From Gammaproteobacteria bacterium (GTDB lineage Bacteria; Pseudomonadota; Gammaproteobacteria; GCA-001735895): a DNA stretch of 54,947 nt. The stretch is taken from contig JACNJF010000169.1 in NCBI GenBank assembly GCA_014382695.1, positions 1 through 54,947 of the forward strand, in the 5' to 3' direction. Position 1 is the stretch's first letter. Each line of letters begins with the position of its first letter. Position numbers and translations under genes: made by a program. The notes beneath the pieces are model-generated. The model saw nothing but the letters and a program-made list of their open reading frames with translations. It was not told where the DNA came from and searched no databases. Positions 225 through 3,802 of the stretch are shown piece after piece.

Positions 225-1076
225 ATGAGCACACAGCAAGACAAACCCTTCCTCGGATTCGGCCTTGGCCTGCGTACCGATCACTATCAGGAAATCATCG
301 AACAGCAGCCAAAGGAAATTGACTGGTTTGAAATTATTTCCGAGAACTACATGGTCGAGGGCGGCAAACCGCTCTATTTTCTGGATAAAATCCGACAGGA
401 TTATCCGATGCTGATGCACGGTGTTTCGATGTCGATCGGCAGCACCGATCCGCTCAACATGGATTATCTGGGAAAGCTGAAGGCGTTAATCGAGCGGGTC
501 GAACCGATGTGGATTTCGGATCATCTGTGCTGGACCGGAGTGGATCATAAAAACATGCATGACCTATTGCCACTGCCCTATACCGAAGCCTCTGTCGACC
601 ATATCGCCGGGCGTATTACGCAGGTTCAGGATTTTCTCGGACGCCAGATGCTGATCGAAAATCTGTCGAGCTATATCACCTATACCAGCGACGCCATGAG
701 CGAGTGGGAGTTCTTAACCGCTGTGGCAGAAAAAGCCGACTGTTACATCCTGCTTGATATCAACAATATCTACGTCAGCAGTTTTAATCATCATTTCGAT
801 CCGATGGATTATCTGCAGGGGATACCGGCTCAGCGCGTCTGGCAACATCATCTGGCAGGTCATCAGAATAACGGCAACCTGATCATCGACACCCATGATC
901 ACCCCATCATCGATCCGGTCTGGGAACTGTACGCCAGGGCTGCCGAATTACTCGGCCCGGTATCAACCATGATCGAACGCGACGCCAATATACCGCCACT
1001 GGCTGAAGTCATCGCCGAACTGAATCAGGCGCGCGCGATTGCGGCCCCTTTTTACCGGAGCCAGCAACATGACTGA
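225..1076 (+). CDS. DUF692 / MNIO family protein (BufB/HvfB-like)
   Basis: A 283-residue protein of the DUF692 family (multinuclear non-haem iron-dependent oxidative enzymes). Family members with known roles modify Cys residues of small ribosomal peptides, giving copper-binding products such as bufferins. The TIM-barrel metal-site motifs are visible: SENYM near residue 40, MHGVSMS near 64, SDHLCW near 97, IENLSSY near 145, DINNIY near 178, HLAGH near 209, DTHDH near 222 and a late ERD. The start is an ATG with a weak ribosome binding site. The gene overlaps the following DUF2063 gene by 8 bases (ATGACTGA), implying translational coupling. This pairing is the classic bufB–bufC arrangement, but no precursor gene is visible in the 224 bases upstream. 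Family assignment is firm; the substrate is unknown. Confidence 0.9.
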
Positions 1077-1866
1077 TCAACACTCCGATTTGCGCGCGCT
1101 GCAACAACGCTTTCAGGATTATCTGCAGGGCAATTCAGAAGAATTCGAGAAGGACATTATCAGCACCGAAAACGCACTCGCCGAACACCGCCTCGGCGCT
1201 TATTACAATGCCTACCGCATCCGTCTGATCGAATGCCTGGCGACCGATTTTTCGGCCTTACAGAAAGCGCTGGGGGAGCACGACTTTGAGCTGATGGTGC
1301 TCGATTACCTGAAGCTATACCCGTCGGAAGATCCCTCGGTACGCTGGGTGGGACAGCATATGGCCGAGTTTTTACGCCACAGCGGTCACCACGACAGTCA
1401 GTTTCTGGCGGAACTGGCCGCTTTCGAATGGGCCCAGGGGCTGTGTTTCGATGCGGCTAACAGTGAACGCCTGGTCACGCTGGAGGATATGGCGCAGCTT
1501 GACCCCGCTGCGTGGCCGCTGTTGAGCTTTCGCTTTCATGCCTCGCTGCGCTGGCTCGATCTGCATTGTAATGTTGCACCCTATGCAGTGGCACTGGATG
1601 AAGAGCAGCCGTTACCTGAAAAAACCAGCGATGAGATTCCGGTGCGCTGGCTGCTGTGGCGGCGCGAGATGAGCCCGAACTGGCGCTCGCTGGAGGTAGC
1701 AGAAGCCTGGGCGATAGAAGCCGCGTACCACGGGGCGAATTTCTCAGAACTGTGTGAAGGCCTGCTGGAATGGCTGGGTGAAGATCTGGTGGCCGTCACT
1801 GCGGCCGGTTATCTGAAACAGTGGATCCACGATGAACTGATCATTGAACTGCAGCTGCAGGACTGA
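1069..1866 (+). CDS. DUF2063 family protein (BufC/HvfC-like putative DNA-binding/partner protein)
   Basis: About 265 residues. The N-terminal part (roughly residues 5–95) matches the DUF2063 pattern, with [34 protein letters not shown] and the [19 protein letters not shown] region. The remaining part is helical and rich in Trp and Leu. I chose the ATG at 1069 because GGAG lies 8 bases upstream and it overlaps the DUF692 stop; an upstream in-frame start at 1039 would overlap more and lacks this site. DUF2063 proteins accompany DUF692 enzymes and act as partners that recognise the precursor peptide in bufferin/Hvf-type systems. The gene is convergent with the HupE-like gene, with only four bases between them. 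Confidence 0.85.
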
Positions 1867-1870
1867 ACGC

Positions 1871-3013
1871 TTAACCGGCAATCCGTTGCCAGGTCCAGAA
1901 TAGCCCCATTAGCGCAATCAACACCGACCCCGGAATCACCACAAAATTACGATAACGACGCTCGTCCTGCCTTAACCAGAACACCGCCGCAAAGGCGAGC
2001 AGAATCACGCTCAACTGACCGAGCTCTACACCGATATTAAAGGTGATCAAAGCGGTTACAAATTCTGTCTCCGGCAGGCCCAGTTCAGTTAGCACACCCG
2101 CAAAGCCCATGCCATGCAACAAACCAAATACAAAGACCACGATAATCCGCCAGGGCTTCAGCTGACGGGTGAGTATGTTTTCGATGCCAACATAGGCGAT
2201 CGAAATCGCAATCAGCGGCTCCACTATAGACGATGACAGACTGATCACCCCATAGATGGTCAGTGCCAGCGTAATACTGTGGGCAAGCGTAAAAGCTGTC
2301 ACCTGCCACAGCAGTGGAGAAAAATGGCGACTGAGTAAAAACAGCCCGATCACGAATAGAATATGATCCAGCCCTCGGGGCAGAATATGCAGGTAACCCA
2401 GACCGGTATAATCGATCGCGACATCGCTCCAGCTACGCGCGAGATTTTTGCTCTGCAACTGATAGGGTGGACTCGGTTCACCTTTAACCAGCCAATAGGT
2501 GGTTTTTTCAGTTTGCCCGGCAGTCACAAAATTAACCACCGCATCACCGTATTTTGCCGCATAAGACCAGATCGCGACTCGACTCGCTGCAGGAATCTCT
2601 GCGCTATAGTGAATCAACGATTTTCTGGACAGCCGTTCATCACCCACTTCAGGAATCATTACAGAATCGAATTTCCAGTCGACCGCGATCCCATCGACGA
2701 CTAACTGCAAACCGGCTCGGTAGTCAATGGCTAAAGGGCTGAACTTCTGTTCTAGATCGGCAGGTGCTAATTCGCGTAACGCGCGGTACACTTCCACCTG
2801 CGGAGCATTATCGGTATTTTCATGTTCGGCTCCGATACCGGATACGATCGCTTCAACATTGGTTTCAATCTGAACTTTTACCCTCGCATCCTGATCAAAA
2901 TTGATCGTCACGATGGCGGGCCTTAACTGATGCGCACAGAGTGGATTAAACCAGCTTATTAATAACGTAAATAATAGAAAACTATGAAAAAATATTTTTT
3001 GAAGCAGAGGCAT
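1871..3013 (-). CDS. HupE/UreJ-like membrane protein
   Basis: A 380-residue protein. It opens with a signal-like hydrophobic segment (about residues 5–27, ending near CAHQ) and a periplasmic domain of about 170 residues. The C-terminal half is polytopic (about residues 205–375) and contains the HupE/UreJ_2-type segments GLGYLHILPRGLDHILFVIGLFL, FTLAHSITL and GLLHGMGFAGV, with conserved His residues. HupE/UreJ relatives are linked to nickel or other metal uptake; here the substrate is not known. The ATG start lies inside the first codons of the opposite-strand DUF4198 gene, so the two divergent genes overlap by 30 bases. No better downstream start keeps the signal peptide. Membrane location is clear; metal transport is inferred from family. 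Confidence 0.8.
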   Translation of the reverse strand: MPLLQKIFFHSFLLFTLLISWFNPLCAHQLRPAIVTINFDQDARVKVQIETNVEAIVSGIGAEHENTDNAPQVEVYRALRELAPADLEQKFSPLAIDYRAGLQLVVDGIAVDWKFDSVMIPEVGDERLSRKSLIHYSAEIPAASRVAIWSYAAKYGDAVVNFVTAGQTEKTTYWLVKGEPSPPYQLQSKNLARSWSDVAIDYTGLGYLHILPRGLDHILFVIGLFLLSRHFSPLLWQVTAFTLAHSITLALTIYGVISLSSSIVEPLIAISIAYVGIENILTRQLKPWRIIVVFVFGLLHGMGFAGVLTELGLPETEFVTALITFNIGVELGQLSVILLAFAAVFWLRQDERRYRNFVVIPGSVLIALMGLFWTWQRIAG

Positions 3014-3802
3014 TTTGGATTCCAGCTGGTGTTACTACTGCTGTTAGTAAACGTTAACAGTGCGATCAGTCATGATTTCTGGTTGGAGGCGCATCCATTC
3101 TACACCAGCCCGTCAAAAACTGTCGAGATCTCGATTCATGTGGGTAACGAATTCGCCGGGGACAGCCTGCCCAATATCCCAAACTGGTATAGCGATTTCA
3201 GCCTCTACCAGCCCGGCTCCAAAACTAAAATAGAAGGCGAAATGGGACGCGACCCCGCAGGTTTTTTTACCCCTGATAAAAATGGTACCTATGCCATCGG
3301 GTACCAGAGCACCTATACCTATATCGAAATAGAACCGGAAATCTTTTTAAAATACCTGACCATGGAAGGGCTCGAACATGCCATCGCATACCGTCAAAAA
3401 AATAATCTGACCGATACTCCGGGTAAGGAAAATTATATTCGTCATCCCAAAGCACTGGTGCAGTCGGGTGACAGTTTTGAGATTGACAACTCGACCCTAA
3501 CCTTTGGCTATGAGCTGGAAATTATTCCGTTAAGCAACCCCTACAGGAAAAAGCTAAACGATAAACTAAGTGTTAAAGTGCTGTATCAGGGCAAGCCGAT
3601 TAAGGACATCCTGTTGATCGCGCTGACCAGGGCCAGTCCTGAAAAAACCCAGTCGGTTCGAACCGATGCTCAGGGTGTCGCCACGATTGAACTGAATCAG
3701 ACTGGTCCCTGGCTACTCAAAGCCGTGCATATCCTTAACCTTAAAGATAAAAAAGCAGACTGGGAGAGCCACTGGGCCAGCCTGACGTTTGAAATGCGCT
3801 AA
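2984..3802 (+). CDS. DUF4198 domain periplasmic protein
   Basis: A 272-residue protein with a signal peptide (hydrophobic core about residues 13–27, likely cleavage near AIS-HDFW). The mature start HDFWLEAHPF followed by a beta-rich domain is typical of DUF4198, a family that includes NikM-like components and other proteins near metal transporters. The second half contains a carboxypeptidase-regulatory-like beta sandwich (KVLYQGKPIKDILLIAL, then TDAQGVATIEL). The ATG at 2984 is 30 bases inside the opposite-strand HupE-like gene; a TTG at 2999 is a possible later start. The neighbour pairing suggests both act on the same metal, possibly nickel. That is inference. Confidence 0.75.
   Translation: MKKYFLKQRHFGFQLVLLLLLVNVNSAISHDFWLEAHPFYTSPSKTVEISIHVGNEFAGDSLPNIPNWYSDFSLYQPGSKTKIEGEMGRDPAGFFTPDKNGTYAIGYQSTYTYIEIEPEIFLKYLTMEGLEHAIAYRQKNNLTDTPGKENYIRHPKALVQSGDSFEIDNSTLTFGYELEIIPLSNPYRKKLNDKLSVKVLYQGKPIKDILLIALTRASPEKTQSVRTDAQGVATIELNQTGPWLLKAVHILNLKDKKADWESHWASLTFEMR

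Follow-up and report, generated by a model that had tools for sequence, protein, structure and literature searches.

The bufB and bufC genes at the start of the window, the 54,947-nucleotide stretch of DNA analysed here (C166:1-54947, from a contig of 58,514 bases), very probably belong to an ordinary Buf2 bufferin locus in which an IS1380-family element has inserted between the precursor gene bufA2 and bufB, the assembly being broken inside the element; we put the probability of this reading at about 0.92. This genome does contain the precursor gene, which falls on another contig, C4, apparently because the mobile element sits between bufA2 and bufB. This removes a false lead, that of an MNIO enzyme apparently without a substrate, and it illustrates a trap of fragmented assemblies, in which an operon can look precursorless once a mobile element stands between its precursor gene and its enzyme genes.

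The maturase genes at the contig edge

Family profile searches of the window confirm that the bufB and bufC pair is genuine, bearing out the initial annotation, which had described an overlapping DUF692–DUF2063 pair of the bufferin/Hvf type. BufB reaches 387.1 bits against NCBIfam NF050167 (MNIO_BufB; cut-off 310), as a BufB-type maturase, and BufC reaches 66.9 bits against PF09836 (DUF2063; cut-off 27.2), as a DUF2063 partner adjoining an MNIO gene; their frames share 8 bases. The features of the window that enter the argument are as follows.

1-52, + strand: right end of an IS1380-family insertion sequence, with the inverted repeat TGAAATATTCAGG at 40-52
53-56, + strand: CTAA, equal to the CTAA preceding the left end of the element on C4; probable target-site duplication
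67-80, + strand: intergenic repeat GGCCAGGGACGGCC, a copy of GGCCAGGGAYGGCC
167-196, + strand: weak sigma-70-like promoter candidate before bufB, 9/12 match
225-1076, + strand: bufB, MNIO-family bufferin maturase, 283 aa; 375.5 bits against Pfam PF05114
1069-1866, + strand: bufC, DUF2063 partner protein, 265 aa counted from the ATG at 1069
1871-3013, − strand: HupE/UreJ-type membrane protein, 161.7 bits against PF13795; convergent with bufBC and left out of the operon
2984-3802, + strand: DUF4198 gene, next after HupE/UreJ and on the same strand as bufBC

Like the bufA2 gene described below, bufB and bufC are full-length, intact frames, and a PF05114 search of the whole genome returns a single match, the bufB of the window. 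Structure searches with BufB find DUF692 and MbnB entries (8 distinct sequences), while those with BufC find no match at E up to 1. The downstream genes had been described as convergent, which holds for the HupE/UreJ-type gene and not for DUF4198. Among six other loci of the same genus, HupE lies downstream of bufC in five and DUF4198 in four; these two genes (window 1871-3802), which accompany the bufferin genes in the majority of the loci inspected within the genus, are possibly metal-related.

The 224 bases upstream of bufB hold no Cys-rich precursor frame by Pfam or NCBIfam, as had been noticed from the letters alone, and the open frame at 2-202 (66 codons) matches neither database. This absence is explained by the position of base 1, which is the edge of contig C166. 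The promoter candidate in the same interval is not significant, with one weak site against 0.7 expected by chance and 27% of shuffles equalling it.

The precursor gene and the probable interruption of the spacer

With the precursor of a relative as query (E up to 10), this genome yields a single match, on contig C4; this genome-wide precursor search covered the BufA2 type. The matching gene and the transposase frame beside it are located as follows.

C4:741-995, − strand: bufA2, an 84-aa frame with six Cys (counted in the translation)
C4:3-581, same direction as bufA2: first part of an IS1380-type transposase, between bufA2 and the C4 edge and cut by that edge

The precursor scores 80.6 bits against NF050166 (BufA2; cut-off 60) and is thus a six-Cys BufA2, with an N-terminus that by eye resembles a signal peptide. 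Its only Pfam match is to DUF7640 (18.8 bits, under the cut-off of 28.1); DUF2282 is rejected as its family, since there is no DUF2282 match and a BufA2 match instead. On C4 the gene is preceded by a frame that we take, from reading it, to be AroC, and by a protease assigned to the TIGR02281 family by profile searches, in the same arrangement as in relatives. The expectation that the precursor would lie left of the edge is therefore supported, with the amendments that it is BufA2 rather than DUF2282 and that it does not lie immediately left of bufB, an IS1380-family element apparently intervening.

Both broken edges carry the ends of this element. The 13 bases found at 40-52 of the window recur, inverted, at C4:624-636 beside the transposase, with CTAA adjoining each end, in the manner of IS1380 ends and a target duplication. 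The C4 transposase frame scores 201.9 bits against PF13701 (cut-off 34.7) and 154.7 bits against NF033539, below the cut-off of 180 of this whole-protein model, the frame being truncated at the end of the contig. A full-length relative of the element is available in another genome (L049 in G001), where the corresponding ends lie about 1.57 kb apart, the right one with 1 mismatch, and CTAA stands at both flanks; by eye, seven residues of its transposase are missing from the C4 frame. The sequence resembles IS1380-family insertion sequences in the apparent family of its transposase, its inverted ends and the short direct repeat beside each end, and departs from them in its C4 transposase frame, which is truncated and falls below the NF033539 cut-off.

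The element is present at least partly a second time in this genome. The first 55 bases of C4 also occur in contig C149 and window bases 1-56 at the end of contig C7, so that the assembly evidently broke within repeated sequence. Given this second, at least partial, presence, the element itself leaves the pairing of C4 with C166 unproved: by shared edges alone, C4 could continue into C7, and CTAA was rejected as the sole basis for pairing contigs because C7 also carries it after the element. Placing C149 by synteny failed; of the 7 other genomes of the genus, one gave a strong match to the gene on C149, at 51% identity. A fourth site bearing the 13-base end, within a long gene frame on C154, is unrelated.

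As the insertion is not bridged by any contig, we infer the join of C4 to C166, which would run through the IS1380-family element, from sequence comparison with relatives. A BufB search of 57 genomes, including this one, gave BufB matches in 44. The comparison of local gene context among close DUF692 homologues, which had been proposed as a check, finds bufA2 upstream of bufB in 29/29 relative loci (L003-L031; 28 of the same family and L031 of another), its stop lying 69-347 nt ahead of the point where the bufB match begins; bufA2 was located by a short precursor motif, and whole precursor frames are seen in 28 of the 29 loci, the exception being L015. The precursor and MNIO genes are thus linked in each of these 29 relative loci, whereas here they lie on two contigs and would adjoin through the element. 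In longer stretches from 18 same-family loci (L076-L093), BufA2 and BufB are each found in 18, and AroC, the protease and BufC each in 16, in an automatic pass that dropped overlapping frames and in which contig ends cut some stretches. C4 holds the genes that precede bufB in relatives, and C166 those that follow it (bufC and, in the genus, HupE).

The flanks themselves also correspond. Of the 4 exact copies of GGCCAGGGAYGGCC in the whole genome, two border the break, one on each side (C4:640-653 and C166:67-80), and both have the same orientation with respect to the genes; the uninterrupted bufA2–bufB spacer of G003 contains 4 copies. Joining the flanks at CTAA yields a spacer of 277 nt, which is within the range of relatives and has AGATAATTGCTCC in common with L004. 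Across genomes the repeat, which is also present in the L008 spacer, is variable in number, with 17 copies in G003, 4 in this genome (G000) and 0 in G002 and G036.

Other readings of the split locus carry little weight. Two copies of the element could have recombined and so moved bufA2 and bufBC apart, leaving BufB to act on BufA2 from afar; both broken edges of the element recur on a second contig, and sizeable proportions of precursors unlinked to MNIO genes are reported in PMC12452194. Against this improbable course of events, the genes at the flanks are the ones that relatives carry in an unbroken locus, and the rare repeat GGCCAGGGAYGGCC stands at both flanks in the same orientation. More improbable still is the initial annotation's alternative that BufB and BufC form an operon without a precursor and act on a new or distant substrate. 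In its favour are the lack of a precursor frame in 1-224 and a public genome scan in which 6 of 80 BufB relatives had no upstream candidate by motif search (one with only 232 nt upstream), but bufB and the BufA2-type gene each occur once in this genome, the latter among its expected neighbours, all 29 relative loci have such a gene, and the two flanks together make up a locus that relatives have in one piece.

A further possibility, compatible with an interrupted Buf2 locus in that it concerns the state of the locus and not its identity, is that the system has been silenced by the insertion and that its genes are in decay. We regard this as unlikely, since bufB and bufC are full-length with strong family scores and bufA2 is intact, although loss is known in the family. 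One genome (G012, contig C190; L181, L185) retains bufA2 as an orphan precursor beside fragments of bufB (residues 7-34) and bufC (41-66 and 221-258). In G013 and G032, aroC and the protease remain and are followed by genes that, by reading of their frames, we presume to be LysR-type and gcvP-like; bufA2 and bufB were not found. Nor were they found in G011, where the contig ends 225 nt after the protease, or in G005, G022 and G024, whose genome completeness is 79-90%. The bufferin module is thus variable at this site, and the insertion in the present genome is a further sign of module turnover. The aspartic protease is unsupported as a member of the pathway, because it adjoins aroC in G013 and G032, where bufA2 and bufB were not found. 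Two BufB relatives of about 62% identity (L059, L060) have other small Cys-rich precursor candidates upstream, with a lipoprotein-like start.

The hairpin between precursor and maturase genes

Behind bufA2, at C4:685-706 (L033), lies a hairpin followed by a T-run. A generic terminator scan of this region of the genome finds 1 such site against a shuffle mean of 1.3, so that support for the hairpin rests on its conservation. Among the relatives, 28 of the 29 loci have a hairpin and then a T-run in the spacer; that of L031 was missed at the loop limit used, although one is visible by eye, and because this hairpin differs, the alignment was restricted to 29 rows, those of the present genome and L003-L030. 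In it 97.9% of cells pair, compared with at most 52.4% in slid versions. Changes on both sides affect 4 of the 10 pairs, a number equalled by 7/500 shuffles, and the covariation score is equalled by 0/500, with the caveat that related sequences may beat shuffles without structure.

The public genome scan, in which close relatives of the present genome are recorded as Gammaproteobacteria, extends the comparison. Its 80 loci comprise 57 with a six-Cys-motif precursor and a spacer of more than 25 nt, 1 with the motif and a shorter spacer, 16 with a Cys-rich candidate of another kind, of which L122 at least is doubtful, and the 6 mentioned above. A terminator-like hairpin occurs in the spacer of 22 of the 57 six-Cys loci, against 0.2 expected from shuffles. 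Five of the 57, all with the hairpin (L097-L101), lie on contigs equal in length to ones already used, which leaves 17 of 52 (among the 17, L130 has a spacer of 857 nt); the majority of these further six-Cys loci, 35 of 52, have no terminator-like hairpin under the criteria used. Directly behind the hairpin, a -10-like box is found in 21 of 30 segments, against 8.8 in shuffles, and full promoter-like sites in 7 of 30, a modest excess over the 2.4 in shuffles; in both comparisons the segments are related.

The separation of bufA2 from bufB by a terminator-like hairpin suggests that the two sides, bufA2 and bufBC, may to some extent be separate units. We tentatively propose, at somewhat less than even odds, that this family's Buf2 loci have the precursor gene and the maturase genes in two transcription units split by a conserved intrinsic terminator, many of the loci with a promoter-like box directly behind it. 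If so, the amount of the copper-binding peptide would be set apart from that of the enzyme, and the separation would allow an insertion between the units to be tolerated. A literature search for a terminator with a precursor gene and DUF692 found no paper, and the word 'terminator' is absent from the main texts of PMC12452194, PMC12538549 and PMC13097082, although the hairpin may have been described elsewhere. The conserved bufA2–bufB hairpin offers a small, testable point on how precursor and enzyme amounts are set.

Taken together, the locus would read protease gene, bufA2, bufB, bufC, with the IS1380-family element, inside which the assembly would have broken, placed after the hairpin that follows bufA2 and before bufB. 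Judging from the protein families, BufA2 would be exported via a signal peptide, BufB together with BufC would modify its Cys residues, and the modified product would bind copper. Since the insertion lies behind the hairpin and T-run, bufA2 itself should be little affected. With less confidence, we suggest that the insertion mainly takes away read-through from bufA2 and does not abolish the pathway, because the terminator-like hairpin already divides bufA2 from bufBC.

Relation to known bufferin and oxazolin systems

According to PMC12452194 and PMC12538549, the exported precursor has Cys residues that are modified by an MNIO enzyme together with its DUF2063 partner, and bufferins aid growth under copper stress by binding excess metal. 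The DUF2282 (Buf1) and HvfABC/oxazolin clusters share with the present locus the same enzyme superfamily and the same DUF2063 partner family. They are set apart from it by their precursor in the case of the DUF2282 clusters, the precursor here matching BufA2 rather than DUF2282, and by their family models in the case of the oxazolin type: the HvfB model gives BufB 288.4 bits, its cut-off being 360, and the HvfC model (NF050145) gives BufC 38.4 bits, with a cut-off of 142. DoxX, given as a core gene of bufferin clusters in PMC12452194, does not stand beside bufC here, where the next gene is of the HupE type; the two DoxX matches of the genome are on contigs C122 and C92. With the Buf2 (six/twelve-Cys) bufferin clusters of PMC12452194, the locus has in common the six-Cys precursor, the MNIO enzyme, the DUF2063 partner and the order A-B-C, and it differs from them in the insertion sequence that apparently lies between the precursor and enzyme genes in this genome.
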